Source: Campylobacterales bacterium (lineage in GTDB: Bacteria > Campylobacterota > Campylobacteria > Campylobacterales > Hydrogenimonadaceae). Taken from it: a stretch of 33,371 bases of DNA. Below the pieces are notes generated by a model that ran no database searches, was not told the origin of the DNA, and saw only the letters and a program-made list of their open reading frames with translations. Positions 18,242 to 33,299 of this stretch are shown piece by piece. The position numbers and the translations under genes are program-made. The stretch is taken from NCBI GenBank assembly GCA_027081015.1, contig JALWMA010000124.1, forward strand, positions 1-33,371, in the 5' to 3' direction. Position 1 is the stretch's first letter, and each line of letters begins with the position of its first letter.

Positions 18242-21142
18242 ATGTATTTTGGCAGGCTTTTTCTCCTCTTTTCGGTTCTTACGGCTCTTTTATACCCTAC
18301 CGAACATAGAGCTGCCGACAACTGCGCCCCCTCCGACTTCTCCGTATCTCTCGATGCCTCAAACAGCTCCTACTCAAACAGCGGCAATATCGCGAGAGGG
18401 GGCTCGGATACATACTATGTATCCGTAGCGGCGGCGGGCACGGTTACCGTAACCGTCTCATCAAGGAGTGTTCTCTTTTCATACTCCCAAAACAGCTGCC
18501 CCGCCGCAGGAGACCCGCCCGCTTCACAGAGTGCTACATACAGCTTTACGGGACCCGCCGATTTCAACCTCAGGCTCTACAGGGGCAGAAGGGGCGGCGG
18601 CAGAAGGGGCGGAAGCTATACCGTAAACATCGAATATACCCCGCTCTCTCCGATAGCCGAGTACAGGATGGACGAGTGCGGCTGGAGCGGGGTGCCGGGT
18701 GAGGTGGAGGATAGCATCGGGGGTGATAGCAACGGTACGGTCACCGGTGGAGGGGCGGACACTACGGATTCCGGGATGCTGTGCCGGGCCGGAATTTTTT
18801 CCGGGGATGCTGTAGATATAGACAACCTCGAGGTAAGCACGGCAAACGGCGAGAAGACGACTGTTATGTTCTGGATCTACTGGGATGGAACGAACAGTGT
18901 AATGCCGTTTGGTTGGGATATATACGACCTGTGGTTCTATAACGGAAATTTCGGGTTCAATACGGGAAACGGGGATATATACGGAATATCTTCGAGCGGC
19001 CTTGCAAACGGCTGGCACCATGTGGCGGCGGTATTCACAAACGGAGACGTAAGCGCGAACCGACTCTATATAGATGGAGCGGAGCAGACACTTACCCAGA
19101 GCCTAAGCTCTCCGGACAACAGTCGCGCGGTCGTGCAGAGCAGCGCAAGGATAGGCGGTTGGCTAAGAGACGGCGGCTACCGTTTTCGCGGGAACATCGA
19201 TGAGCTGAAGATATATAACGGCGAGGTGCTTGGTGCAGATATAAAGAGCATATACGACAATGAGAGTGCCGGGAAAAACTACGACGGAACGCAGAGGAGC
19301 TGCGCCGACTGCTCCCGGCCGCCCGTCTACAAAAACGGTACGTTCAACGCCGTCGATTACACCTCGGTCTGCAGTGCCGTATCTAACTGGGACGACAATA
19401 TCACGACCAAGGTGGCCGGGAGCGCCTATTCACTCTCCATACTTTCGAAGGAGGAGGCCACCGGTCTACCTATGGAGGCCAATATTACAAGAGTCGATCT
19501 CTACAGATATTCGAGCGGCGATACGGCTGCGTGCAGCGGTGCTCCCTACTCTTCGATCACCCTTTGCAGCGGGGGGTGCGGCTTTACCGACGCGGCGGGG
19601 TGTATGAGGCTCGATGTCCCCTCCTCGGCGAACGACAGGGCTGCAAAGTGTGTGGAGGTTCATATTGAGGGCAAAGATCTCAACGATACCGCTTCGGCAA
19701 GTCTCAAAGAGAGCAACAGCAGTGACGACTTCGCGGTCAGGCCCGACACGATCCTCTTTCTGCAGCCCGAGGCCGATGCGAATCTGACCGCAGAGCGAAG
19801 CTACCTTTTCACCTCAGCTCTCAAAGCGGTTCTCTCCGACGGCACTACGGCCGCCCCCGACTACAACACCTCGCTTACGCCGATAGGCGTCAAGTATATG
19901 AGAAACGGCGAGCAGAACTCCTCCCTTGCCGGAACCCTGAGCTCCTCCCCCTCGGCCTTCGCGGACGGATCGGCCGATCTGAACGTAAGCTTCGGTGACG
20001 TGGCGATCGTATCTATCCGTTTCAACGATGTGGGCTGGGCATCGGTCGACAGCGACGATACGCCGCCGCAGAGCAGGAGGATCTACGGCGAACGAAACGT
20101 AACCTTCATCCCGAAGCGTTTCGATCTGCAGTTTCTCTCCGCTCCGACGATGGAGGACAACGACACTGCAAACCGTTTTACATACATCTCGAACGACCTG
20201 AACATGAGCGCGTGGGCCAGGAGCCTTACGGTCGTCGTCACCGCCGTCGGCGAAAAGAGCTCGACGATGAAAAACTTCTCGAACCCGTCCGACCGCCTCT
20301 TTGCGGACCCTGTCGACATCTCGCCCCTTCTCAACCTGCCGGCGAAACACTCCGTCGCCCGCTACACGGCCGCCCCATCGGCGCAGTCCGGGGCCGATAT
20401 AGGTTTCGATTCGGGGGAAGCGTTCGTAAACTACGCCGATGTGCCGTTCAACTACGACCGCTCTTTCGACACCCCGCTGGATCCATTTTTCATCTCCGGC
20501 AGCGAGGCGAATATCTCCGTAACGGTTACCGATTCGCGCTATCCGGCCGTAGGAGGGAGCATCTTTTCGGTTTTCGACGGCAATGCCACATTCTACTACG
20601 GCAGGTTGCGCGCGGATGACGTCATTACGACGCAGCCTTCGGTAGAAAAGAGTGTGGAGATAGAGGTCTACGACAGCAGCGGCTCGGCACTGGTATCGGA
20701 CTTCAGGCAGAATTCGCTCAGGTGGTTCAGAAACAAAAAGCATACCGGCCCCTCTTCAGGCAGGATAGCGGAGGCGAACGTCACCCTGGGGCTCACCCTC
20801 GACTCCGGTTCGGACACTTCCGTTTCGATCGGCTACTCGACGTTCGGCAGCGGTTTTGTGGTGATGGAGCTAAACAACACATCTGGTCTGCGAAAGAGCA
20901 GAACGGTCCATATGGGGGTAGAGAGCTGGCTATGGTACGCCCCGCGCGGATTCGGCCTGCCCTACAGCTACGCCCCCTCCTCGGACTGTGCCTCACACCC
21001 CTGTTTTCTCTACAGCTTCGAAGTGAAAGGGTCGGCCACGGGTGTCGCGAGCGGCGACTTCAACGGCTCAGACTTCGATACCGGGCCGATAGACGCCAAC
21101 GCCACGATAAGGCGTAAAGAGGGAGTGAAACTCTTCAGATGA
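18242..21142 (+). CDS. mshQ: MshQ-like secreted protein with LamG-like domain (pilus tip or adhesin candidate)
   Basis: The 966-residue protein starts with a signal peptide (about residues 1-24). Residues 25-135 resemble a small beta-sandwich of the pre-peptidase C-terminal type. Residues about 139-338 are LamG/concanavalin-like (WHHVAAVFTNG, NRLYIDGAEQ, FRGNIDELKIYNGEV). The remainder, with FYYGRLRADD near residue 780, resembles the large C-terminal region of MshQ proteins. Eighteen of its 23 N-X-S/T sites fit D/E-X-N-X-S/T, concentrated after residue 380, which suggests dense N-glycosylation. No C-terminal anchor is seen. GGAG precedes the ATG, and the stop overlaps the first prepilin gene by ATGA. 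The MshQ label rests on domain order and locus context. Confidence 0.75.
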   Translation: MYFGRLFLLFSVLTALLYPTEHRAADNCAPSDFSVSLDASNSSYSNSGNIARGGSDTYYVSVAAAGTVTVTVSSRSVLFSYSQNSCPAAGDPPASQSATYSFTGPADFNLRLYRGRRGGGRRGGSYTVNIEYTPLSPIAEYRMDECGWSGVPGEVEDSIGGDSNGTVTGGGADTTDSGMLCRAGIFSGDAVDIDNLEVSTANGEKTTVMFWIYWDGTNSVMPFGWDIYDLWFYNGNFGFNTGNGDIYGISSSGLANGWHHVAAVFTNGDVSANRLYIDGAEQTLTQSLSSPDNSRAVVQSSARIGGWLRDGGYRFRGNIDELKIYNGEVLGADIKSIYDNESAGKNYDGTQRSCADCSRPPVYKNGTFNAVDYTSVCSAVSNWDDNITTKVAGSAYSLSILSKEEATGLPMEANITRVDLYRYSSGDTAACSGAPYSSITLCSGGCGFTDAAGCMRLDVPSSANDRAAKCVEVHIEGKDLNDTASASLKESNSSDDFAVRPDTILFLQPEADANLTAERSYLFTSALKAVLSDGTTAAPDYNTSLTPIGVKYMRNGEQNSSLAGTLSSSPSAFADGSADLNVSFGDVAIVSIRFNDVGWASVDSDDTPPQSRRIYGERNVTFIPKRFDLQFLSAPTMEDNDTANRFTYISNDLNMSAWARSLTVVVTAVGEKSSTMKNFSNPSDRLFADPVDISPLLNLPAKHSVARYTAAPSAQSGADIGFDSGEAFVNYADVPFNYDRSFDTPLDPFFISGSEANISVTVTDSRYPAVGGSIFSVFDGNATFYYGRLRADDVITTQPSVEKSVEIEVYDSSGSALVSDFRQNSLRWFRNKKHTGPSSGRIAEANVTLGLTLDSGSDTSVSIGYSTFGSGFVVMELNNTSGLRKSRTVHMGVESWLWYAPRGFGLPYSYAPSSDCASHPCFLYSFEVKGSATGVASGDFNGSDFDTGPIDANATIRRKEGVKLFR
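18584..18612 (+). repeat. Two-unit 15-base-period repeat inside the mshQ-like gene
   Basis: GGCAGAAGGGGCGG occurs at 18584-18597 and again at 18599-18612. It encodes two GRRGG units in a row within the first beta domain. The in-frame period could allow length variation by slippage. Confidence 0.75.
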
Positions 21143-21774
21143 GAAGTGCGCTTACGTTGATAGAGCTTATCTTTACGATGGTGATAGTGGGGCTCGTCTT
21201 TACGGTGGTTCCGAAGATCGTATTCGTCACCAACAAGAGTTTCGAAACGGTCTCGAGAGAGGATGCACTCTACAACGCCGTATCTATGGCGGGGATCGTG
21301 GCCTCGCTGCCGTGGGACGAGAACAACACCATCTACAGTGACGTTCTGGGCACTGACTCGACACGGCCGGCCTACCTTTGCGACGCGACGACCGGCTTTT
21401 ACAGGATAGGCGGTTTCAAAGGTGGGCGTAACTGCATGGAGGCTTCGGCGGCGGCGAAGGCATCTCCGATCGGCCGGGAGGATTCGCTCTATAACGATCT
21501 GGACGACTACGACGGATACAGCGTAACCACCGCAACCCCCGGCGGCTCGAAATATCTCCTGAGCGTCAAAGCGAGATACCTCGCCGACCCGCCCCCGGGA
21601 GGGGTGGTGGACTTCTCTACGCTTCCCGCGGTTTCGACGAGCTCGAACATAAAAGAGGTCAACGTAACCGTTACCAACGCGGCGGGAAGGGTGAAGAGCC
21701 CCTTCGTATCTTCCGTCTACTACGAAAGCGCAAACATAGGGCAGACAGCAGTCAAGAGGAGGGCGTGGAGATGA
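21139..21774 (+). CDS. Type IV prepilin-like protein (MshD-like position)
   Basis: The 211-residue protein begins MRSA-LTLIELIFTMVIVG. This is a class III (prepilin) signal with Glu at +5, but Ala instead of Gly at -1 and Leu at +1. The hydrophobic helix continues to about residue 28. The globular part has cysteines in YLCDATTG and RNCMEA that may pair. Two bacterial N-glycosylation sequons are present, DENNT and EVNVT. By position before an MshO-like gene it may correspond to MshD, a minor pilin, but sequence similarity alone does not prove which. It overlaps both neighbours by ATGA. Confidence 0.8.
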   Translation: MRSALTLIELIFTMVIVGLVFTVVPKIVFVTNKSFETVSREDALYNAVSMAGIVASLPWDENNTIYSDVLGTDSTRPAYLCDATTGFYRIGGFKGGRNCMEASAAAKASPIGREDSLYNDLDDYDGYSVTTATPGGSKYLLSVKARYLADPPPGGVVDFSTLPAVSTSSNIKEVNVTVTNAAGRVKSPFVSSVYYESANIGQTAVKRRAWR

Positions 21775-22706
21775 GACGCGCTTTTACGCTCATAGAGATA
21801 GTCGTCGTAATCTCCATCTCCGGAATATTGGCGGTGGGAGCCTTCAAAGCGCTCAACGCTCTCTATGTAAGGAGCGCAAAGGCTCGCGCCGTTACGGAGC
21901 TTTCGCTGAATACGCAGTCTGCCCTCGATCAGCTGAGTACGATTCTGTACGCGAGGGTGCCCGGAAGCGTCATAGGGTACGACCCGGCCGACGGAAGCTA
22001 CGCATCTTTGGAGAGTCTCGCTTCGCCGAAGCCGGTACTGGAGTGGATAGGCAGCGCACAGGAGAGCCTAAAGAGGCGCGACTTCAGCGGGTTTGTGGAT
22101 ATGAACGCAAGCGACCCTGCGGCGAACGTCGCGGTCTCCCCGGAGAGTGACGGCACAAAGGTCGATGCGACCCTGCGTCAGAAGTTCGGCACGACGGCCG
22201 ACTTCTTCGCGAACGATCTCGTTAGGCTCGTCTTTGCCGGCAGTTACGACACGGGGGCGGTAGAGGGCGTCTCCTTTAACGCCCTCTTCGGCTGGCACGG
22301 CGGCGGTGCGGAGAGGATCTACGCCGTATCGATGAGCGGTGACGGCAGTATCAGCTTCAGCGCCGACCCGCCCTATATATACGAAAAGTACTACCTGGCC
22401 GACACCGCCTACGCCGCGGCCAGGGGTGCGGATGTGAATCTGAGCGCGTCTTGCGTAACCTCTCTGGGCGTACCCGTATCTGCCGACTCCCTGCTTCTCT
22501 TTTACGACTACAGGCCCTGGAAGGGGGAGACCTTCTGCGCAGACTCCGGCGGCGCCCCTTCGGGAAAAGTTACGCTTCTTGCCGACGATGTATCGGGCTT
22601 CAGGGCGCAGAGCGTAAACGGAGTAATCAGGCTCGGCATAGACAGTGTGCGAAAGATAAGGGGCTCCACCCCGGTGCGGATATCGAAGCAGAAGGCGGTT
22701 TTCTGA
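21771..22706 (+). CDS. mshO: Type IV prepilin-like protein (MshO-like)
   Basis: The product has 311 residues. The N-terminus MRRA-FTLIEIVVVISISGIL is a prepilin signal with Ala at -1, Phe at +1 and Glu at +5. Its size, larger than other pilins, and its place before an MshP-like gene suggest the MshO/PilW class of minor pilins. Sequons DMNAS and DVNLS are present. The ATG at 21771 is chosen because AGAGGAGG precedes it and the overlap is ATGA; a GTG at 21765 would add two residues. Confidence 0.75.
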   Translation: MRRAFTLIEIVVVISISGILAVGAFKALNALYVRSAKARAVTELSLNTQSALDQLSTILYARVPGSVIGYDPADGSYASLESLASPKPVLEWIGSAQESLKRRDFSGFVDMNASDPAANVAVSPESDGTKVDATLRQKFGTTADFFANDLVRLVFAGSYDTGAVEGVSFNALFGWHGGGAERIYAVSMSGDGSISFSADPPYIYEKYYLADTAYAAARGADVNLSASCVTSLGVPVSADSLLLFYDYRPWKGETFCADSGGAPSGKVTLLADDVSGFRAQSVNGVIRLGIDSVRKIRGSTPVRISKQKAVF

Positions 22707-23155
22707 TGGCGGCAAGAAGAGGCTTCGGGCTGTGGCAGGCGATAGCGGTCATACTAATAGTCGGTGTCGTTATGACGGTGGCGATGAGGTATGCCCGGAT
22801 CGCGGCCGTGCACACCGCAGACAGCTACACCAAAGAGCAGGCGGAGCTCTTTTTGAGAAGCGCCATGGAGACCGCCATGCTTCAGATAAGCACCCACGAC
22901 AGGAGCGGCGGCTGCCTCTCGGGCGTGAAGGTGCTCTCGAGAGACGGCAAGTTTATAGCCGATATAAACATCACGAGGTACTACCTGCTCGAAGGGAGCT
23001 CGGACCTCGCGCTCTGCGGCAGCCTCGGCTACCCGATAAAGAGCGCCGAGTCGCACGGCATGGTGATGATGGAGGCGGTCGTAAGAAGCGACCCGTCGAA
23101 CGCCAAAGTCGTACACCCGGTAAGAATCCTCAGAAGGAGCATACAGCGGCCATGA
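22706..23155 (+). CDS. mshP: MshP-like minor pilin
   Basis: The 149-residue product begins MAARRG-FGLWQAIAVILIVG. Gly at -1 and Phe at +1 form a prepilin cleavage site, but Gln replaces the usual Glu at +5. Lack of Glu5 is typical of the MshP/PilX class. One sequon, DINIT, and two cysteines (GGCLSG, LALCGS) are present. The start overlaps the previous stop as TGATG, and the stop overlaps the next start as ATGA. Confidence 0.7.
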   Translation: MAARRGFGLWQAIAVILIVGVVMTVAMRYARIAAVHTADSYTKEQAELFLRSAMETAMLQISTHDRSGGCLSGVKVLSRDGKFIADINITRYYLLEGSSDLALCGSLGYPIKSAESHGMVMMEAVVRSDPSNAKVVHPVRILRRSIQRP

Positions 23156-23619
23156 GAAGGGGTTTTACACTCATAGAGCTTATATTCGTTATCCTTCTGA
23201 TCGGCATACTGGGCGGTATAGGCATCTCGCTCTACCGGCCCGACAGGGGGCTGGCCGACGCAAGATTCGTAGCCTCGAAGATTATGGAGAGCAGATATGT
23301 AGCGATCGGCTACGAGCGCCTGAATTTCGACTCGAGTGTGCTTGCCGGGAGTGTCGGCTGCATAACCCTCGACAGATCGGGGCTCGACGATCCGCCGTCG
23401 AAAGCCGGCGGCTACAGGCTCGACAAAAGGACGCAGATATCCGTAACCGGCCTCTCGGGGAACACAATTTGCTTTGACGAGAAGGGGTATCCGCACGACG
23501 GTGACTTTACGACAGGTTCACTACTGCACCAAAAGGTCGATATTAATGTCAGCACACCGAAAAATAGCTACATCATAAGCGTAATGCCCTTCAGCGGATA
23601 TGCGAAGATAGTCTACTGA
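23152..23619 (+). CDS. Type IV prepilin-like protein (MshC-like)
   Basis: This 155-residue prepilin has a canonical signal, MRRG-FTLIELIFVILLIGILGG, with Gly at -1, Phe at +1 and Glu at +5. Two cysteines (GCITLD, TICFDE) could form a disulfide. The sequon DINVS lies near the C-terminus. It could be MshC or a GspH-like minor pilin. It is the last gene of the upstream block; 65 bases then separate it from the mshI-like gene. Confidence 0.8.
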   Translation: MRRGFTLIELIFVILLIGILGGIGISLYRPDRGLADARFVASKIMESRYVAIGYERLNFDSSVLAGSVGCITLDRSGLDDPPSKAGGYRLDKRTQISVTGLSGNTICFDEKGYPHDGDFTTGSLLHQKVDINVSTPKNSYIISVMPFSGYAKIVY

Positions 23620-23684
23620 TCTATTTCGCATCTCTTGCGCAGAAGGGGCGGCGAATATAACCGAATAAAGAGACGGAAAAAGAG

Positions 23685-25166
23685 ATGGCTGGACGGAACG
23701 TATTTTACTGTATCGACGAAAAAGAGGCGCTGGAGTTCGACGGCTCCTCCCTTTCCGTAACCGATATAAAAAGGGCCAAAAGGGGCTTTTGTGCATCGGT
23801 GGTTCCGCCGAGCCATATTCGCTCCCACACCTTCAAGATTCCGGCCGATACCGATGCCGAAAGGCTCGATACGCTCGTAGAGATCACGATGTTCGAGGCG
23901 GGAGGGCTCGATCTCGAGAAGGAGTATTCCGTCGCCTATGTGAAGCATACGCTGGAGTTCGAATCTTCATGGCTGATAGAGGCGTTTGCCGTGGAGCATT
24001 CGAAACTAAAAGAGCTCTTCGGTACGACTGCCTCCAGGGCCGGCCATATAGACCTTCTCGCCGTACCTTACATGGTATACGAGGGGCTCTACCTCTACGA
24101 CAAAGCCGAGAGCGAAAGGACGGATCTCTTCCTCTATCTCGGCGACGACGACTCCTACGCGGTTCTTTGCAAAAACGGCCGCTACATAGCCCACAGGGAC
24201 CTCCCGTCGATCTCTTCTATAGCCGCAAAGGCGAATGTAACCGTGGAGGCGGTAAAAGATACACTGCGCAAACGGGGGCTTCAGGGCGAACTCTACGGAC
24301 CCGACGAGCTGCTCCTGCAAGAGAGCGTAGAGAGTGCGTTTTCGAAAATCGTCGAGCGTGTGGCGCAGACCGTAAACCACAAGCGCGGGATTTTCGGAAT
24401 AAAGGCGGTAGACCGCATAAGCCTCGACTTCGAAGAGAGCCCGATTCCCGGTCTTTGGGAGCTTTTCGACGGCTACGGCTTCGAAGGGAGCGCAAAGGGT
24501 GAGCTCGCCTGCTGCGAGAGCCTCGAGCCCTCCAAGCAGCACATGGGTGTCGAAGCGCTCTATATGCTTGCCGCAAAAGATGGGAGGCTGGAGCCGCCGA
24601 ACCTGACGATTTTTGAGAAAAAGAGGGGCTTCTGGGCCACCCATACCGGGCGTTTTACGGCGGCGGTGGCGGCCTCGGCGCTCCTGGTATGCGGGTACGC
24701 CCTCCTGAAAGAGGCGGAACTGGCCTCTTTGGAGGATGAGAGCGCTATGCTTGACGCCAGACTCAAGAGTGTGAAGCAGAGAGCCGCGGTTTTGCGAAAG
24801 AGCGCGACGAAAGAGCGCTCCATGCTGCAGGAGCAGAGAGAGAGGCTCGATGAGGCAGCGCGTGAAATCATGGCATTCGGCGATACGGCCGATGCCGCAC
24901 TGCTGATAGAGGAGTCGAAGCTGAAAAGGCGGCGGATGGTGGAGGATGTAGACAGGGCGCTCGCCAAATACGGGCTCAGCGCCGCATCGCTGGAGCAGAA
25001 CGGCTCCAGGCGGATGGAGGTGGAGATCCTGAGCGACTATGCGAAACGCGACAGGATCGCAAAGTTCATGAAGGAGCTTATCGACATGGGCTACAGGGGA
25101 GTAGGCACAGAAGCGATAGAGCTTGACGAGAACCTCTACAGCAGCCTGGTGGAGATAGTGCGATGA
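23685..25166 (+). CDS. mshI: MshI-like inner-membrane assembly protein (PilM-PilN fusion)
   Basis: The product has 493 residues. Residues about 1-300 look like an actin-like PilM/GspL cytoplasmic domain, with DLFLYLGDDDSYAVL and IVERVAQTVNHK. A single membrane helix lies at about 322-341 (VAASALLVCGYALL), then a coiled coil (about 342-390) and a periplasmic PilN-like domain. This is the MshI/GspL layout. In PilMNOP systems the two halves are separate genes. It should form the inner-membrane alignment complex with the next two products. A GGAAAAAGAG tract precedes the ATG, and the stop overlaps mshJ by ATGA. Confidence 0.8.
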   Translation: MAGRNVFYCIDEKEALEFDGSSLSVTDIKRAKRGFCASVVPPSHIRSHTFKIPADTDAERLDTLVEITMFEAGGLDLEKEYSVAYVKHTLEFESSWLIEAFAVEHSKLKELFGTTASRAGHIDLLAVPYMVYEGLYLYDKAESERTDLFLYLGDDDSYAVLCKNGRYIAHRDLPSISSIAAKANVTVEAVKDTLRKRGLQGELYGPDELLLQESVESAFSKIVERVAQTVNHKRGIFGIKAVDRISLDFEESPIPGLWELFDGYGFEGSAKGELACCESLEPSKQHMGVEALYMLAAKDGRLEPPNLTIFEKKRGFWATHTGRFTAAVAASALLVCGYALLKEAELASLEDESAMLDARLKSVKQRAAVLRKSATKERSMLQEQRERLDEAAREIMAFGDTADAALLIEESKLKRRRMVEDVDRALAKYGLSAASLEQNGSRRMEVEILSDYAKRDRIAKFMKELIDMGYRGVGTEAIELDENLYSSLVEIVR

Positions 25167-25783
25167 CTCTTCTGGAAGACACGGAGCGGCAGCTGGCGGA
25201 TATGGGGAGGGCCAAACGGCTGGCCCTCACCTTTACCGCCGCGGCGATGGCGGCCGCCGGGGTATGGTTCGGCTGGGTAGAGGATCTCGAAGCCGGCATA
25301 GATAGTACGAGAGCCAAAAACGGGCAGATAGTGAAACAGATAGCGATGGTGGACCTCAAAAAGCTTTCAAACAGGATCGAAGAGCTCCGCCGCAAGCGGA
25401 TGGAGGCGGCCGAAACGCTTCAGCGCAGGCGTGCGCAGCTGCTCTATCTGCGCACCGAGATGGATAGAGTCGAGAAGCTGAAGTTCGACCAGGGCGTCAT
25501 GGCCGACCTTCTTGACGCCATTCTCAAAAGATCGGTTAGGCTGGGGCTGAGGATCGACTCGATAGAGAGCGTAGAGGATCCTCTCGATCTTACGCCGCTT
25601 CTTCAGAGAAAGAGGAGAGTCTCCGTCGAGGGGGCGGGTGCGTTCGCGAAGATCGTGAGCCTGAGCCACTACATAGAGAGTCGCCCAAAGCTTGCGAAGA
25701 TCGATTCGCTCGATATATCGCTCGATAAAAAGGGGAACACGACATTCAGAATAGATATATCTACATACGGGGTGAAAGAGTGA
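25163..25783 (+). CDS. mshJ: MshJ-like (PilO/GspM type) inner-membrane protein
   Basis: This 206-residue bitopic protein has a short cytoplasmic tail, one membrane helix at about residues 20-37, a coiled coil to about 105, and a small ferredoxin-like periplasmic domain (SLDISLDKKGNTTFRIDISTYG). The layout and place after the MshI-like gene fit MshJ/PilO. It would pair with the PilN-like half of MshI. It is coupled to both neighbours by 4-base overlaps. Confidence 0.75.
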   Translation: MTLLEDTERQLADMGRAKRLALTFTAAAMAAAGVWFGWVEDLEAGIDSTRAKNGQIVKQIAMVDLKKLSNRIEELRRKRMEAAETLQRRRAQLLYLRTEMDRVEKLKFDQGVMADLLDAILKRSVRLGLRIDSIESVEDPLDLTPLLQRKRRVSVEGAGAFAKIVSLSHYIESRPKLAKIDSLDISLDKKGNTTFRIDISTYGVKE

Positions 25784-26184
25784 AGAGGGCGGTTTTCGTG
25801 CTGATTTCGGCGAATCTGTGGAGCATGGCGGCTTTGGCCGGCGAAGCGGAGGATATTTTGAAGAAGTTCGACACCCTGAAAAGCATACATATCCCCTCCG
25901 CGGTGGAGTACAGGGTCTATGACCCCTTCAAGCGTGCGGCGCCGCTGGTCAAAAGGAGCGCCAGGGGGTTCGCGACGCACCGGCCCGCTCCTATAAGAGT
26001 GACGGCCATACTCAACGACAGGGCCTTCATAAACGGGCGGTGGGTCCGTACGGGCGAGTATCTGGGCCGCTACAAAATAGCCCGGATAGGAGCTACCGGT
26101 GTGGTGCTAAAGAGCGGAAACATGACCCGCTTCGTACCGCTCGGCAAGAGGAAGAGAATTTTGAAGATAGAGGAAAACCTATAA
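25780..26184 (+). CDS. mshK: MshK-like (PilP type) periplasmic linker protein
   Basis: This is a 134-residue exported protein with a signal peptide ending about residue 20 (AALAG). The C-terminal part, VTAILNDRAFINGRWVRTGEYLGRYKIARIGATGVVL, has the beta pattern of PilP/GspC homology regions that contact the secretin. Position between MshJ- and MshL-like genes supports MshK. The start is GTG 25780, overlapping the upstream stop as GTGA; the stop overlaps the next start as TAATG. Confidence 0.75.
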   Translation: MKRAVFVLISANLWSMAALAGEAEDILKKFDTLKSIHIPSAVEYRVYDPFKRAAPLVKRSARGFATHRPAPIRVTAILNDRAFINGRWVRTGEYLGRYKIARIGATGVVLKSGNMTRFVPLGKRKRILKIEENL

Positions 26185-27698
26185 TGAGACGTGCGGTTGC
26201 AACACTACTCTTTTTTACCATGCTGCTATACGGTTCGGCCGACTGCCGGACGAAACTCTTTTCGTTCAAGGTATCCGGTGCAGCAGGTACCGTTACCCTC
26301 TACGACGTTCTCGAAAACCTCGCCGATACCTGCGAGTTCACCGTCATGTTCGCCGACAGAGAGGTACAGAGGGTCTTAAAGAGTCCGCTGAAGATGGTCT
26401 ATATAAAAGACTACACCCTCGATGACATGTTCCGCTTCCTCTTCGACGACCACAATATGTTCTACGACTTCGACCGCGAGAGAAGGGTCTTGACGGTATC
26501 TTACATAGAGACAAAATCTTTTCACATTGACTACGTGAACCTGAGCGAGCTGAAGACGGAGTCGGTAAAGTCCATAACGGTCGGGGCCTCCGGAAACCAG
26601 GGCGGAGTATACGGCACCACGGGCTCATACGGAAGCTCTTCTACGGTAGGCAGAGCCGGTTACGGCGGTTCCGGTGGCGGCGACAACTCCGACTACACCA
26701 CCATTAAGACCGTAACCGAGTTCAACTTCTGGAGCGACTTCAAGAGCCAGATAGACGCCATACTGCAGCGCGACGAAGACAGCCACACGGTAAAGAGCAA
26801 AGCGCTTGTGAACAACGAAGGCGGAATCGTTACGGTTACCGGAACCAAGCGCCAGATCGAGAGGGTGCAGAGATATATAGAGCAGGTGATGGGGCGGCTG
26901 CACAAACAGATCATGCTCGAAGCGCGCCTGGTGGAGCTGCGCTACAACGACCAAAACACCACCGGGGTGGACTGGAGCCGTTTCGACCTCTCTCTGAAAG
27001 GGGAGGTTTCGGATACCTACCAAAGGGGGCTCTCTTCGCTTACCGACCGCCCCTTCTACTCGTTCAGCTACAACTTCACGATAGACGGGCTTCTCGACTT
27101 TCTGCAGCGTTACGGCACCGTGAACACCCTCTCAAACCCCAAAATCATGACACTCAACAACCAGCCCGCGGTAATAAACGTGGGAGACCAGATAAACTAC
27201 AAGTACCAGACTGGCGAGATCACGACCACAACTACCGGGAACCCTGTGGGTACCAACACATACCAGCTAGGATCCGTATTTATTGGGCTTACTCTAAACA
27301 TCGTACCGGAAGTCACCGACGACGGTTTCATCATACTGCGTGTAAATCCTGTCGTGAGTGAAATGTTGGGAGACAACAGTACAAGCGACCTTACATACAC
27401 CCAGCCCGATAGTTATGTACGAAGCATGCCGCCCGATGTGAAGATAAAGCAGCTCACCTCCATTGTGAAAGTGAAGAACGGTCACAAGGTGATAATAGGC
27501 GGGCTCATAAGCAACCGCACCTACTCGACCAACACGAAAGTACCGGTGCTTGGAAGCCTTCCCCTGGTCGGCAGGGCGTTCAGCCACAACGGTACGCAGA
27601 GCCAGAAGGTGGAGCTGATCATCATACTGACTCCGAAGATCGTGGACGGAACATCTTTCCCGTCCATCGACGACGCACTGCGGATGGGGGGCAGGTAG
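26184..27698 (+). CDS. mshL: Outer-membrane secretin MshL-like
   Basis: The product has 504 residues with a signal peptide (about 1-20). An STN-like domain follows (about 25-100, TLYDVLENLADTCEF), then a Gly/Ser/Tyr-rich insert around 135-175 (YGTTGSYGSSSTVG), an N1-type domain and the secretin barrel. The C-terminal signature VPVLGSLPLVGRAF followed by ELIIILTPKIV is classic. It forms the pore through which the fibre passes. The Gly-rich insert resembles disordered loops seen in other secretins. AGAGGA lies at 26169-26174. Confidence 0.9.
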   Translation: MRRAVATLLFFTMLLYGSADCRTKLFSFKVSGAAGTVTLYDVLENLADTCEFTVMFADREVQRVLKSPLKMVYIKDYTLDDMFRFLFDDHNMFYDFDRERRVLTVSYIETKSFHIDYVNLSELKTESVKSITVGASGNQGGVYGTTGSYGSSSTVGRAGYGGSGGGDNSDYTTIKTVTEFNFWSDFKSQIDAILQRDEDSHTVKSKALVNNEGGIVTVTGTKRQIERVQRYIEQVMGRLHKQIMLEARLVELRYNDQNTTGVDWSRFDLSLKGEVSDTYQRGLSSLTDRPFYSFSYNFTIDGLLDFLQRYGTVNTLSNPKIMTLNNQPAVINVGDQINYKYQTGEITTTTTGNPVGTNTYQLGSVFIGLTLNIVPEVTDDGFIILRVNPVVSEMLGDNSTSDLTYTQPDSYVRSMPPDVKIKQLTSIVKVKNGHKVIIGGLISNRTYSTNTKVPVLGSLPLVGRAFSHNGTQSQKVELIIILTPKIVDGTSFPSIDDALRMGGR

Positions 27699-28490
27699 AT
27701 GCTCGATTATAAAAGGGCGGCTGCTCTCTTCGAAGACAGGGCCGACAGCGGAGAGTACTTCGATTCGGCGAGTGCCGAGCGTTCCAGAAGCACACTGAGG
27801 AGGGTCGTGGGCGAAGAGGAGAGGAGACCCCTTTTCCTTCTGGGGGAGCCCGGCGTCGGCAAGAGCCATATGCTCGAGACGGTTGCCGAAGAGATGAGGG
27901 GCGAGCGGCTCGTCGTACATCTGAAAGAGCCCTTTTTCGAGCCGAAAGACTTCCTGGAGCGCCTGCTGCGCGAAATAGGAGAAAAGAGGGAGGGGGGATT
28001 GGACGGTATGAAGAGGGCGGCCGTCGATGCCTACGGCCGAAAAGAGCACCTGATAATGATAGACGAAGCGCAGATTCTCGATGAAAAGTCGCTCGAGTTT
28101 TTGAGGATTTTGGCAGACACGAAAGCCTTCAGGCTGCTCCTTTCGATGCACCGCAAAGAGGGCGAGGAGATTTTGGCCAAACCCCACTTCAGAACCAGAA
28201 GCCACCGCGTCGTCGAGATAGGCGCCCTCTCGGCCGACGAGGTGCGGCGCTATGTGGAGGGGAGGCTTGCCGGAAACGGGCTGGAGGAGGTTTCGCGCCT
28301 GTTCGAAGCGAAGCACTTCAAGCGCATATACCGCTATACCGGCGGGAACTTCAGGACCCTAAAACGTATGGTGCAGACCCTCTTCGAAATCATGGATTAC
28401 GCAAAGAGCGAGGGGCTCACGAAGTATGCCGTGCCTAACGGCTGCACCATCGATATGGCCGCACTCGATCTGGAGCTGATAGATGAATAG
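27699..28490 (+). CDS. mshM: MshM/ExeA-type AAA ATPase
   Basis: This 263-residue AAA+ ATPase has Walker A GEPGVGKS (49-56) and Walker B LIMIDEAQ (118-125). The family includes MshM and ExeA; ExeA helps assemble the secretin across the peptidoglycan. This copy has no peptidoglycan-binding domain or membrane helix, as in MshM. A SHRVVEIGALSADEV segment fits the sensor and lid region. The ATG directly follows the mshL stop, and the gene overlaps mshN by 8 bases. Confidence 0.85.
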   Translation: MLDYKRAAALFEDRADSGEYFDSASAERSRSTLRRVVGEEERRPLFLLGEPGVGKSHMLETVAEEMRGERLVVHLKEPFFEPKDFLERLLREIGEKREGGLDGMKRAAVDAYGRKEHLIMIDEAQILDEKSLEFLRILADTKAFRLLLSMHRKEGEEILAKPHFRTRSHRVVEIGALSADEVRRYVEGRLAGNGLEEVSRLFEAKHFKRIYRYTGGNFRTLKRMVQTLFEIMDYAKSEGLTKYAVPNGCTIDMAALDLELIDE

Positions 28491-29265
28491 CCGTTTCGAA
28501 TCGCTTCTAAGCAGGTGCGGATCGAGAAGGAGAAGGGTCGCCGCCAAGCGGATAGGTGCAGTTTCGCTGCTTCTTCTTTTGGGAGGCGCCGCGGCATATC
28601 TGACACGCTATGAGGGGCCTCTTTTAAGCGGCGGAAGCGAAAAACGAGATGTCGAAACCGTTGTCGTGACGGCCCCGCCCGCCCCCGCGGAGCCTGCAAA
28701 AGAGGAGCCGGCCAAAAGAGAGGCGGAGCCGCAAACCGCGAGGGCGGCCGAGCCGAAGAGGGAGATCGAAAAAGGTGCCGCAGCGGTTGTGAAAGAGAGG
28801 GGGAATGCCCCGAAAGAGGGCGAAAATAGCGAACCGAAAGAGATAAAAAAAGAGGTTGCAAAAGGGGTTGTCAAACCGGAAGCGAAACCGGATAAAGATG
28901 GGCAGGCAGCACTTTTAAAACCGGAAGTCGAGAAAAAAGAGGCGAAACCGAAAGTTATGCTGGAGGTAAAGGAGGTTGCGGGCGTAGAGGCGCTGCTCGA
29001 ACAGTATGCGAATGCGCCGAGGTACTCCGTGGCCCTTAAAATCGCACGGAACTATTTCGACGAGGGAGATTTCGAAAAGGCCTCTTTGTGGGCGAGGAGA
29101 GCGAACGTTCTGGACCGTGACGACGAGGGGGCGTGGATTGTCTACGCGCAGTCGGAGTACGCGCTCGGGCGCGAAGAGCGGGCGAAGCGGATACTGAGGC
29201 TCTTTTTGGACTACAAAGATTCGGCAAAAGCGCGCTCTTTGCTGATGACATGGGGAAGTGAATGA
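28483..29265 (+). CDS. mshN: MshN-like TPR membrane protein
   Basis: The product has 260 residues. One membrane helix lies at about 24-40, preceded by a very basic stretch (SRRRRVAAKR). A long Pro/Glu/Lys/Ala-rich linker spans about 60-160. A C-terminal helical TPR-like domain follows (LKIARNYFDEGDFEKASLWA, then WIVYAQSEYALGREERA). The layout and its place between the AAA ATPase and the assembly ATPase match MshN. The linker would let the TPR domain reach through the periplasm. Confidence 0.75.
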   Translation: MNSRFESLLSRCGSRRRRVAAKRIGAVSLLLLLGGAAAYLTRYEGPLLSGGSEKRDVETVVVTAPPAPAEPAKEEPAKREAEPQTARAAEPKREIEKGAAAVVKERGNAPKEGENSEPKEIKKEVAKGVVKPEAKPDKDGQAALLKPEVEKKEAKPKVMLEVKEVAGVEALLEQYANAPRYSVALKIARNYFDEGDFEKASLWARRANVLDRDDEGAWIVYAQSEYALGREERAKRILRLFLDYKDSAKARSLLMTWGSE

Positions 29266-30932
29266 TTAGGCAGAGTGTAAGGCTGGGCGATATACTGGTC
29301 GAAAAGGGTCTCATCACCGAAGATGAACTGACGGAGGCCCTGAAGAAGCAGAAGGAGAGCGACTACACCAAAAAGCTGGGCGAGATTCTGGTGGACGAGG
29401 GCTTTGTGACCGAAAGGGAGATAGCGGAGCAGCTGGCGAGCCAGCTTAGGCTGGAGTTCGTGGACCTCTACGGCGTGGAGCTGGATCTGAAGCTGCTCGA
29501 GCAGTTTCCCCTGCAGATTCTAAAAAACGCATGGGCGGTGCCGTTCGGAGAGGATGAGGAGAACATATTCGTAGCCACCTCCGATCCGCTCAACTACGAC
29601 GCCCTCGAGGTTCTCGAAAGAAGTGTGGTAACGAAGCCGATCAAACTCTTTCTGGCGATGAAGGGCGAGATCCAGCACATATTCCAGCGAATCGAAATCA
29701 TAGACTCAACCAGGTCGATCGTAGCCGAAGTGAAGCGCGAGATAAAACAGCACGGCATCAAAAACGAGAGCGAAGAGAGCGCCGTTTTGAAGCTCATAAA
29801 GCTCATAATAAAAGATGCCGTGATCCGCAACGCGAGCGACCTGCATATAGAGCCGGACGCCTACGAGGTGTCTGTGCGCGCCAGGGTGGACGGCGTGCTT
29901 CACGAGACCTTCGTCTTCGATCTGGAGGTATACACAGCCCTCGCCTCGCGCATAAAGATACTCGGGAACCTCGACATATCCGAGCGCAGAAAGTCGCAGG
30001 ACGGCAGGTTCATGCTGGTCGTCGACGGCAAAGAGTACGACTTCAGGCTCTCGGCGACCCCCACCCTGCACGGCGAGTCGATAGTGATGCGAATTCTCGA
30101 CCAGCAGAAGGTTCTGATGAAGATGTCGGAGCTCGGGTTCGAAGAGGATAACCTCAAAACCTTCCATGAGGTGATTCACCAGCCCTACGGCATAGTTCTG
30201 CTAACAGGCCCCACCGGCAGCGGAAAGACAACGACCCTCTATGCCGCCTTGAACGAGATCAAAAGCATCGAAAACAAGGTGCTGACCATAGAGGATCCCG
30301 TAGAGTACCAGCTCCCCCTCATTCAGCAGGTACAGGTCAACGAAAAGATCGGTTTCACATTCGCGAAGGCGCTGAAATCTTTTCTGAGGCAGGACCCCGA
30401 CATCATAATGGTGGGCGAGATTCGCGACTTCGAGACGCTCTCCGCGGCCGCACAGGCGTCGCTTACCGGGCATCTCGTCTTCTCCACACTCCATACCAAC
30501 GACGCCCCGAGCGCCGTCAGCAGGATGGTGCAGATGGGGCTGGAGCCCTACCTGATAGCCGATGCGCTCATAGCCGTGGTGGCTCAGCGCCTCGTGCGTA
30601 AAATCTGCCCCTACTGCAAAACCGAGAGCAGGCCCCACCACGACCTGATAAAGAGGGTGGAGAAGTACCTGCCCGAAAGTCCGATCTTCTACAGGGGCAA
30701 AGGGTGCCCCGAGTGTGAGATGACCGGCTATATGGGCAGAACGCTGATAGTGGAGATAATGAGCGTAAACGAAGCGGTCGCGCATAAGATCTCCGAAGGG
30801 GCACCGAGGCTCGAGATAGCCAAAGCGGCGCTCGAAACGGGGCAGTACCGCCCGATGGTAGAAGACGGCGTCAGAAAGGTTCTCGCCGGGGTTACCACCC
30901 TCGAAGAGGTGTTGAGGGTTACGCGGAGCTGA
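29262..30932 (+). CDS. mshE: Pilus assembly ATPase MshE (GspE/PilB family) with MshEN domain
   Basis: The 556-residue hexameric ATPase powers fibre extension. The N-terminal MshEN domain has two 24-residue motifs, at 7-30 (RLGDILVEKG...L..Q) and 38-61 (KLGEILVDEG...L..Q). In Vibrio MshE these motifs bind cyclic di-GMP. Walker A is GPTGSGKT (316-323). The Asp box follows around TIEDPVEY, and Walker B is DIIMVGEIRD. Zinc cysteines are CPYC (449, 452) and CPEC (482, 485). The gene is joined to mshN by ATGA and lies 2 bases before mshG. Confidence 0.94.
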   Translation: MIRQSVRLGDILVEKGLITEDELTEALKKQKESDYTKKLGEILVDEGFVTEREIAEQLASQLRLEFVDLYGVELDLKLLEQFPLQILKNAWAVPFGEDEENIFVATSDPLNYDALEVLERSVVTKPIKLFLAMKGEIQHIFQRIEIIDSTRSIVAEVKREIKQHGIKNESEESAVLKLIKLIIKDAVIRNASDLHIEPDAYEVSVRARVDGVLHETFVFDLEVYTALASRIKILGNLDISERRKSQDGRFMLVVDGKEYDFRLSATPTLHGESIVMRILDQQKVLMKMSELGFEEDNLKTFHEVIHQPYGIVLLTGPTGSGKTTTLYAALNEIKSIENKVLTIEDPVEYQLPLIQQVQVNEKIGFTFAKALKSFLRQDPDIIMVGEIRDFETLSAAAQASLTGHLVFSTLHTNDAPSAVSRMVQMGLEPYLIADALIAVVAQRLVRKICPYCKTESRPHHDLIKRVEKYLPESPIFYRGKGCPECEMTGYMGRTLIVEIMSVNEAVAHKISEGAPRLEIAKAALETGQYRPMVEDGVRKVLAGVTTLEEVLRVTRS

Positions 30933-30934
30933 GT

Positions 30935-32176
30935 ATGCGATACTTCAGGATAGATTACAGGCACGGGAACAGGCGCGAATCGGTCGTGCTCGAGGCGCAG
31001 TCGAAAATGGATGCGGTAACCGAGTTCAGGCAGCGCACCCTCGGAGTCATGCTTTCGGTAAAGGAGGTCTCTAAGCCCTTTTCGCTGAAACTGCGTAAGT
31101 GGCTCGAGGCCAACAGGTCGCCGGTACGCCGTAAAAGGGTCTCTCAGGAGCCCTACATAGCGACACTGAGGCAGATATCGGTCATGCTCGATGCCGGACT
31201 ACCGATAAACCAGTGCCTCGAAGAGGCGATACGCTCCACCGACGACGAGATGCTCAAAGAGATTCTGCGCTCGGTACTCTCGGACATAGAGAGCGGCATG
31301 AGCCTCAGCGAAGCGCTCGGGCCCTTCAGGGTCCAGCTCGGCAGCATCTCGCTCTCCATGTTCAACCTCGGAGAGCAGACGGGAACGCTTTCGGACTCGA
31401 TAAAAAAACTGGCGGAGATACTCGAGCAGATCCAGCACAACAGGCGTGAGCTGGTGCGGGCGACGCGCTATCCGCTCTTTACGATCATCGCTATGATGAT
31501 CGCTTTCGTCGTAGTCATACTTATGGTCGTTCCGCAGTTTCAGGAGATATTCGCCGAAAGCGGGGCCGATCTGCCCTTTCCTACGCAGCTTCTGATCTGG
31601 GTGGAGCATGCGATGACGAAATACGGCCCATTCATCGTAGCGGGTGCGGTCGTTTTGAGCCTCCTTTTTTCGTACATCTACGGAAAAAATGAAAAAGTGA
31701 GGCTCGAAGCGGACCGTCTGCTGCTTAAAATCTATATCGTAGGCAAGGTGACGCACTACGCGATGGTGGGACGCTTCGTCTATATATTCAACGTTCTGCT
31801 AAATGCCGGCATTCCGATAACCGATGCGCTCGATGCGGCCATAGGCGTGGTGGAGAACAGCTATATGAAAAGGCGTCTCGAGGCGATAAAAAGGGCCATA
31901 GAGGAGGGGCGTCCGCTCCACAGCGGCTTTGAAGAGAGCGGACTCTTCGCAAACATGATAGTGCAGATGGTGAAGGCGGGCGAGCAGGGCGGCGCGCTGG
32001 GTACGATGCTTCAGAAGGTCACCGACTACTACCAGGAGAGGTATCAGCACATAGTCGACAATGTAGCGTCGATGATCGAACCGATCCTGATAGCCGCGAT
32101 AGCCGGGTTCGTACTGGTACTGGCGCTCGGAATATTCCTGCCCATGTGGAGCATGGCCGAAGTGATGGGGATGTGA
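30935..32176 (+). CDS. mshG: Inner-membrane platform protein MshG (GspF/PilC family)
   Basis: This 413-residue polytopic protein has two T2SSF repeats. The first begins around residue 70 (YIATLRQISVMLDAGLPINQCLEEA), the second around 270 (RFVYIFNVLLNAGIPITDALDAA). Membrane helices are at about 178-198, 231-250 and 384-402. The platform turns ATPase motion into subunit addition. Its N-terminal 65 residues are basic and cytoplasmic. The stop overlaps the start of the 31-codon gene that follows as TGATG. Confidence 0.93.
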   Translation: MRYFRIDYRHGNRRESVVLEAQSKMDAVTEFRQRTLGVMLSVKEVSKPFSLKLRKWLEANRSPVRRKRVSQEPYIATLRQISVMLDAGLPINQCLEEAIRSTDDEMLKEILRSVLSDIESGMSLSEALGPFRVQLGSISLSMFNLGEQTGTLSDSIKKLAEILEQIQHNRRELVRATRYPLFTIIAMMIAFVVVILMVVPQFQEIFAESGADLPFPTQLLIWVEHAMTKYGPFIVAGAVVLSLLFSYIYGKNEKVRLEADRLLLKIYIVGKVTHYAMVGRFVYIFNVLLNAGIPITDALDAAIGVVENSYMKRRLEAIKRAIEEGRPLHSGFEESGLFANMIVQMVKAGEQGGALGTMLQKVTDYYQERYQHIVDNVASMIEPILIAAIAGFVLVLALGIFLPMWSMAEVMGM

Positions 32177-32271
32177 TGGAGAGCGAATTCGGTACGATAA
32201 CGGTTGCGGTGATAAGCACGCTCATTCTGGCGTTCGGACTCTGGATTATCAGAAAGTTGACACAGATATAG
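32176..32271 (+). CDS. 31-residue membrane micropeptide coupled to mshG
   Basis: A 31-codon frame starts at the ATG sharing its A with the mshG stop (TGATG) and ends in TAG. The peptide has an acidic N-terminus (MESEFG), one hydrophobic helix (about 8-25) and a basic tail (RKLTQI), so it should be a single-pass inner-membrane peptide with its tail in the cytoplasm. Translation would be by re-initiation; no separate ribosome site is needed. MshF follows mshG in Vibrio but is much larger. I recognise no family. It could be an accessory to the assembly platform or a non-functional frame. Confidence 0.5.
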   Translation: MESEFGTITVAVISTLILAFGLWIIRKLTQI

Positions 32272-32279
32272 GGGGCGGC

Positions 32280-32315
32280 CTTTTTCGGCTCTATCCTGCG
32301 TCGAACCGGAAAAAG
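32280..32315. terminator. Bidirectional terminator between the pilus operon and the convergent pilins
   Basis: CTTTTTCGG (32280-32288) pairs with CCGGAAAAAG (32306-32315), with one bulged G. The T-rich arm serves one strand and the A-rich arm gives a T-run on the other. Confidence 0.5.
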
Positions 32316-32347
32316 AGAACGAAACGCCCGAGCTGCGGGGATGGGTG

Positions 32348-32824
32348 TCAGTTGTCGATCAGGGTGAAGGTGCCGGAGGTGCTGTTGTACTCCCAGTAGT
32401 CGTTTGCGTCCGGTTTGCCGGCGATGTCGGGTGACGCCGCCTTTACTCCGCCGTTGGAAGCGGGGCCCCTGTAGAAGCCGTCGGCCCCTTTTAGCCATTT
32501 TACGTTTTTCCCGTTTTTCAATATTTTGTCAAGCGGTGCGGTGTCGCTGCTGCCCAGTTTTATCGGGTATCCTGTCGCTGCGTCGAACTGTGTGGGGTCG
32601 GATGGGTCTATGTCGAAACCGCAGGTAAACGATCCTTCGTTTATTATCCACTCTCCGTGGCATGCCTCTATCGCCGTCTGAACCGACGAGGCGGTGGAGA
32701 GTTCCGAGGTTATTTTGGCGTTGTCACGCATCCCCAGAAACTTCGGAACGGCGACGCCGCCGAGCACCCCTATGAGAAGGATGACGAATATCAGCTCGAT
32801 AAGGGTGAAGGCGGCTCTTCTCAT
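32348..32824 (-). CDS. Type IV prepilin (MshA/MshB-like)
   Basis: The 158-residue pilin has the signal MRRA-AFTLIELIFVILLIGVLGG. Cleavage may follow the second Ala, giving Phe +1 and Glu +5. VAVPKFLGMRDNAK continues the N-terminal helix as in major pilins. Two cysteines (IEACHGE, FTCGFD) probably form a disulfide. The sequon EYNST lies near the C-terminus. It starts 4 bases after the stop of the upstream pilin with only a weak ribosome site, so it is probably translated less than that pilin. Confidence 0.88.
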   Translation of the reverse strand: MRRAAFTLIELIFVILLIGVLGGVAVPKFLGMRDNAKITSELSTASSVQTAIEACHGEWIINEGSFTCGFDIDPSDPTQFDAATGYPIKLGSSDTAPLDKILKNGKNVKWLKGADGFYRGPASNGGVKAASPDIAGKPDANDYWEYNSTSGTFTLIDN

Positions 32825-32828
32825 GCGT

Positions 32829-33299
32829 CTACTGCAGATCGATGTTTACCGTGTAGGTTCCGTTGAACGTTGAGTTCGGGGAGACGAGCCTTTTGAGCTT
32901 CTGGTATTTGAGGTTCGTCGAGTCGTTCACCACTTTTATCTGAGCGGAGAGAACCGGCGGATTCTGAGTGTGGTCGATGAGAATCGTCGCGTTCAGCTCA
33001 CCGTTTTTGCCCTTGTACTCCCACGCCGTCGAAGATGCGTTGTATGTGGCGTTTATGCTCCAGTAAGGAGAGCCCTTGACTTCGAAAATGTCGGTGATGT
33101 TCGCGTCGGTCCCGTTTAGGTCGAGCAGGTTAAGGTATGCGGGCGGTACGGAAGATACGGCATCCTGCACCACTTTGAAGACGTTGGTCACCTCGGCGTT
33201 CTGCTTCATCCCCTTGTACTTCGGAATCGCCACGCCGGCGAGTATTCCTATTATTATGATCACGAAGATCAACTCAATGAGCGTAAACCCTTTTCTCAT
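32829..33299 (-). CDS. Type IV prepilin, probable major MSHA-like pilin
   Basis: The 156-residue pilin has a textbook signal, MRKG-FTLIELIFVIIIIGILAG, then VAIPKYKGMKQNAEV. It is first in its own minus-strand operon with a strong AGGAG site, so it is the best candidate for the structural subunit. The globular half is short and Asn/Thr-rich, with eight N-X-S/T sites. Three fit the acidic bacterial sequon: DLNGT, DANIT and ELNAT. It has no cysteine, unlike the neighbouring pilin, so the usual C-terminal disulfide loop is missing. Confidence 0.88.
   Translation of the reverse strand: MRKGFTLIELIFVIIIIGILAGVAIPKYKGMKQNAEVTNVFKVVQDAVSSVPPAYLNLLDLNGTDANITDIFEVKGSPYWSINATYNASSTAWEYKGKNGELNATILIDHTQNPPVLSAQIKVVNDSTNLKYQKLKRLVSPNSTFNGTYTVNIDLQ

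Follow-up and report, generated by a model that had tools for sequence, protein, structure and literature searches.

The window, a stretch of 33,371 nucleotides from the genome of a Hydrogenimonas, a relative of Campylobacter from deep-sea vents, contains a gene cluster (18242-33299) for an MSHA-like type IV pilus, and PglB-type N-glycosylation of this pilus and its adhesin, which a preliminary description of the DNA had proposed, is strongly supported by sequence-level tests, including each of the refuting ones that the description had named. With a probability of roughly 0.87, the pilus and its MshQ adhesin would be clients of PglB and the finished fibre would bear many N-glycans. What was measured is an evolutionary imprint, from which we infer transfer by PglB to the motif D/E-X-N-X-S/T (hereafter the canonical sequon). 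Among named relatives, Hydrogenimonas MAGs come closest, and the source genome (G000, 99.9% complete) falls in the same genus group.

Sequons in the MSHA-like cluster

The cluster begins on the forward strand with a gene for an MshQ-like adhesin of 966 aa (18242..21142), which has a LamG-type domain at residues 189-334 and a C-terminal DUF6701 region (PF20419, 3.3e-8). The PF20419 match, obtained in the C-terminal half by a search of the genome, was weak (32.3 bits versus a cut-off of 27), and the family was not listed in a direct scan of the protein at E values up to 5. MshQ joins a conserved C-terminal DUF6701 region to an N-terminal module that varies; LamG occurs as one domain in the window protein and as several tandem copies in other Hydrogenimonas (L066, L067). 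Four minor prepilin-like proteins follow on the same strand (21139..21774, 21765..22706, 22706..23155 and 23152..23619), in which two of three, both of two, one of one and one of one (DINVS) of the N-X-S/T sites, respectively, are canonical. The MshI-like protein (23685..25166, forward) holds a sole canonical sequon, EQNGS at Asn 439, in its periplasmic part, while the MshJ, MshK, MshL (secretin, 26184-27698) and MshM-like genes (25163..28490, forward) encode products with acid at sequons that is low or at background. The MshN-like protein, the MshE ATPase with its c-di-GMP motif and MshG are encoded at 28483..32176 (forward), and two pilins lie on the reverse strand (32348..32824 and 32829..33299). 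MshE matches the MshE-type c-di-GMP domain NF053729 at 69.5 bits, above the cut-off of 38, and the best-scoring family for the secretin is MshL (TIGR02519), at 241.7 bits against a cut-off of 250.2.

Within the MshQ-like reading frame, 23 N-X-S/T sites were counted, 18 of which have Asp or Glu at position -2, in agreement with the earlier count. The canonical sequons are centred on Asn 164, 386, 414, 481, 492, 514, 542, 559, 581, 619, 640, 654, 757, 781, 846, 878, 941 and 953, and the five sites without a -2 acid on Asn 41, 340, 365, 678 and 879. In 2000 shuffles of the protein, 10.6 N-X-S/T sites and 1.1 acidic ones were expected; the excess claimed in the preliminary description therefore stands, while its expectation of about three acidic sequons was generous, and the 13% acid content behind that figure was replaced here by matched non-sequon Asn controls. 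Among Asn residues outside sequons, only one of 32 has an acid at -2 (Fisher 3.9e-9 versus sequon Asn). The non-acidic site at residue 678 (MKNFS) is kept in 7/7 close orthologues and 11/18 homologues and is probably structural, or else a non-canonical site. The recount also returned the same values for the four prepilin-like proteins and the 32348 pilin taken together (seven of eight N-X-S/T sites acidic at -2, the single site of this pilin being canonical) and for the 32829 pilin (three of eight). The latter pilin contains its eight N-X-S/T sites in 156 residues, compared with 2.0 by shuffling, five of them lacking the -2 acid.

The control proteins named earlier were likewise reproduced (MnmG 0/2, MshE 0/2, MoaA 0/1, MshJ 0/1 and the secretin 1/6, with MshI acidic at one of three sites, located beyond its TM segment), although the list had been selective, omitting QueE (1/1, ETNAT), ORF 4640-6148 (1/2, ELNRS) and MshG (1/1, EANRS), which are single sites at background rate. 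The count was extended to a sample of stretches covering 23% of the same genome. Acidic sequons in cytoplasmic proteins of this sample were at background (30/272, 11.0%, compared with 12.2% for other Asn), whereas in the msh cluster they made up 30/51 (59%) against 9/114 (7.9%) for other Asn; the observed sequon counts are far above both shuffled and non-sequon controls, as the preliminary description had anticipated.

It was considered that the sites are genuine PglB acceptors of which few are occupied, their number reflecting redundancy for a general system in which the pilus is nothing special. The Campylobacter system is indeed general, 9 of 33 C. hepaticus glycoproteins having two or more sites (PMC9816155), and the other secreted proteins of the genome sample showed a weak trend of their own (17/94 versus 76/658, P = 0.056). 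However, in that sample the msh cluster had 6.2 canonical sequons per 1000 aa and other secreted proteins 0.8, an approximately eightfold difference, and no sampled protein outside the cluster had more than two of them. Additionally, the full motif has repeatedly been gained and kept (see below), which suggests that most sites matter, and we regard low occupancy as improbable, though it is the best of the rival explanations. The fibre and the adhesin would instead carry many N-glycans, since selection has made and retained many sites in MshQ and the pilins.

The acceptor rule across the order

The -2 position was analysed in 65 DUF6701/MshQ-homologous proteins (77,326 aa), a set that includes some LamG-only matches and some proteins cut at contig ends. 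An acid was present at -2 in 1171 of 2074 N-X-S/T sites (56.5%), compared with 537 of 4706 N-X-other sites (11.4%), 6 of 52 N-P-S/T sites (11.5%) and 6 of 68 N-X-C sites. For every other tested centre residue, with any residue at +2, the value was 10-16%, and in a scan of offsets from -6 to +6 the -2 position alone was raised, all other offsets having 9-12% acid. Since this residue- and offset-specific pattern coincides with the acceptor rules of PglB, a general polarity of beta-strands is ruled out as its source.

AlphaFold2, run on 17 sequences, gave a confident all-beta region of MshQ spanning approximately residues 390-930 and modelled the N-terminal half poorly. In the predicted model the MshQ sequons lie in both loops and strands; for a sequon in a strand to be glycosylated, PglB would have to act before the protein folds or while it does so, or the strand would have to present it on an exposed face. 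Foldseek matches in the PDB were to generic multi-domain beta proteins (Ig-like, ConA-like) with TM of at most 0.2 by query length, and were set aside as a guide to the function of MshQ.

The location of several sequons in predicted strands, where positions -2, 0 and +2 share one face, could be read as a structural pattern of alternating polar residues on exposed beta-strands and turns that arises without glycosylation. This reading is very improbable, as the other polar centres followed by Ser or Thr reach only 10-16% acid and N-P-S/T sites are equally low. Furthermore, giant RTX proteins of the same order are unenriched (173/1214, 14.3%, versus 553/3965, 13.9%), and in six genomes that encode both kinds of protein, 79/166 sequons were acidic in the MshQ-type proteins and 67/503 in the RTX proteins. 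Similar beta proteins from Thermus, Deinococcus and Priestia plasmids and one Thermus neighbour, which are DUF11/tandem-95 relatives and served as a control for fold type, had 0/89 acidic sequons. Judging from their RTX repeats, the RTX proteins are expected to leave the cell through type I secretion, bypassing the periplasm. RTX-repeat reading frames of 8,000-9,200 residues were seen in five Campylobacterales contigs (G061:C9, G132:C2, G022:C7, G060:C41 and G045:C182).

The acidic-sequon signal follows membrane topology. Homologues of the four minor prepilins and two pilins had an acid at 49-67% of sequons versus 7-17%, while homologues of MshM, which is predicted to be cytoplasmic, had 0/11 acidic sequons, and those of MshE (4/26) and MshG (2/18) were not significantly raised. 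MshI, MshJ, MshL and MshN, which have periplasmic parts, gave intermediate values, MshN-like homologues having 3/10 versus 3/64. Among MshI homologues, 10/15 sequons were acidic in the periplasmic half and 2/27 in the cytoplasmic half, counts that are non-independent as one site is common to most of the proteins. The -2 acid, the exclusion of proline, the requirement for Ser/Thr and membrane topology were thus all recovered from sequence statistics, indicating that the specificity of an oligosaccharyltransferase can be read from genomes.

Conservation of the motif was followed through 18 homologues with 159 sequon columns. An acid was present in 74% of alignment cells with both N and S/T, in 13% where N stays and S/T is lost, and in 18% where S/T stays and N is lost; joint presence of acid, Asn and Ser/Thr gave a Mantel-Haenszel odds ratio of 24. 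Private to one sequence were 80 of the 159 columns, of which 44 were acidic, as against 15 of 171 private non-sequon Asn. This private-column count is safer than a chi-square test because alignment cells share ancestry. Taken together, the columnwise and private counts indicate that the three motif positions were gained and lost together many times, and the pattern, kept in orthologues and renewed by independent gains, has been maintained by selection across the whole order. Shared ancestry, by which a few old conserved DUF6701 motifs would inflate the counts, finds some agreement in sequon columns common to up to 14 of the 18 sequences; the private columns contradict it, as do the pilins and MshI, which are unrelated to DUF6701 and carry the signal too, and it is less credible still than the structural reading.

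PglB and its glycan cluster

The preliminary description had proposed a search of the genome for a pglB homologue and a pgl-type cluster, and both a PglB and surrounding glycosyltransferase genes were found. One STT3-family protein is encoded, of 703 aa by its called start, which matches PF02516 (STT3) at 100.6 bits (cut-off 24.5; 7.6e-29) and C. lari PglB (5ogl) at 8e-120. The catalytic motif WWDYG is located at residue 455, and the equivalents of C. lari Glu319 and Arg331 are Glu317 and Arg329, both kept in all relatives with a fragment that covers them. Arg331 has been proposed to bind the -2 acid, although PglBs of relaxed specificity retain this residue as well (PMC4894442). The NCBIfam equivalog NF050801 was matched over its full length at 475 bits; since its cut-off of 1300 was not reached, the protein is taken as a PglB-type enzyme outside this narrow equivalog.

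The genes around pglB (L002:3587-16644) encode a WecA-like phosphosugar transferase (PF00953), glycosyltransferases of group 1/4 type, a GT2-like protein (labelled from reading the sequence) and one of the GT9 family, together with a C5-epimerase-like protein, a polysaccharide pyruvyl transferase, a hexapeptide transferase and a Wzx-type flippase. The WecA-like gene adjoins pglB in several Hydrogenimonas relatives too, and the PglC-family initiating transferase PF02397 has no match in the genome. Given this neighbour of pglB and the missing PF02397, the N-glycan is probably WecA-initiated and different from that of Campylobacter; the content of the cluster likewise hints at such a difference, possibly including an acidic sugar.

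In the proposed pathway, glycosyltransferases from the pglB neighbourhood would assemble the glycan on undecaprenyl phosphate, with the neighbouring WecA-like enzyme as the probable initiator, and the lipid-linked product would be flipped by the Wzx-type flippase. Pilins and MshQ would enter the periplasm, PglB would glycosylate the Asn of D/E-X-N-X-S/T during their passage, and the pilus machine would then assemble a glycosylated fibre with a glycosylated adhesin. The position of MshQ at the pilus tip is a guess from the literature. The benefit may lie in solubility and in protease or heat resistance of long, exposed beta-domain proteins, and possibly in the tuning of adhesion or masking from phages.

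HMW1C-like NGTs are cytoplasmic enzymes that recognise the plain N-X-S/T sequon. Modification by such an enzyme, as in the large Haemophilus adhesin HMW1 with its many modified N-X-S/T sites (PMC2877744, PMC3012730), is the least credible explanation of all, as Glyco_transf_41 (PF13844) has no match in the genome and neither the -2 acid nor the periplasmic bias fits it.

Of the 249 genomes of the order, 51 had a match to DUF6701 and 188 to STT3. When 43 DUF6701-positive genomes were searched again with PglB, a match was obtained in 30/30 of those at least 90% complete, that of one genome (G115) being broken. In high-quality genomes the association of DUF6701 with PglB (33/35 versus 128/168, P = 0.009) is uncorrected for phylogeny and carries little weight, and the PglB-negative genomes are mostly incomplete MAGs that offer no clean natural experiment. 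Three genomes with acidic sequons and a missing or broken pglB are unexplained exceptions. In two of these, from one genus (g22; G038 and G057), STT3 was not found and the DUF6701 proteins (L069, L175, L176 and L177) are acid-enriched; the gene may have been lost recently, lie on a missing contig or encode a diverged enzyme. In the third, G115, a pglB-like gene (G115:C1:803158-804940, L182) is broken by several stop codons while 24 of 33 sequons of its DUF6701 protein are still acidic, possibly reflecting a recent loss of pglB.

Relation to known N-glycosylation systems

The pgl system of Campylobacter is alike in its PglB-type STT3 enzyme, its D/E-X-N-X-S/T sequon and its periplasmic clients. 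In contrast to that system, a WecA-like transferase stands beside pglB here and the PglC family PF02397 is lacking, and the predicted clients are a pilus and an 18-site adhesin. Campylobacter PglB glycoproteins described so far have few sites each, examples from C. hepaticus having three canonical sequons (PMC9816155), and the purpose of the system is poorly defined; with 18 full sequons in one protein, MshQ and the pilus provide natural multi-site acceptors and a client for testing the function of bacterial N-glycosylation. PglB activity in vent Campylobacterota is already known. PglBs of related vent bacteria (Nitratiruptor, Sulfurovum and Deferribacter) are functional, and some of them recognise sequons differently (Mills et al. 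2016 as cited in PMC6025236), work that, as cited there, concerns the enzymes. The novelty lies in the client, in how densely its sites are packed, in the imprint seen across the order and in the association of the cluster with a WecA-like enzyme. Neither MSHA pili nor MshQ were described as PglB-glycosylated in the literature searched, a weak result given incomplete journal coverage.

The Msh gene set is shared with Vibrio cholerae, where loss of MshQ, a putative adhesin, reduces the MSHA present at the surface and where N-glycosylation is not implied (PMC7096442). HMW1 resembles MshQ in being a large adhesin of a bacterium in which several Asn are N-glycosylated (as predicted here), but it receives mono- or di-hexoses from HMW1C, a different enzyme that is missing here (PMC2877744, PMC3012730). 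A tentative extension, which we hold at somewhat less than even odds, is that the MSHA-like pilus and MshQ/DUF6701 proteins could be the main evolutionary clients of PglB in many Campylobacterales, forming a proteoglycan-like fibre dense in N-glycans whose upkeep would help to explain PglB in free-living lineages, with a WecA-initiated glycan rather than the Campylobacter heptasaccharide. The archaeal sequon is not known to follow a -2 acid rule. N-glycosylated archaellins and pilins of archaea are a further parallel, an STT3-family enzyme there acting on type IV pilin-like fibre proteins (PMC2952790).

Finally, an identical 518-residue predicted protein was observed on two contigs of the source genome (L087:3242-4795 and L093:9782-11335), representing either a gene duplication or an assembly duplicate.
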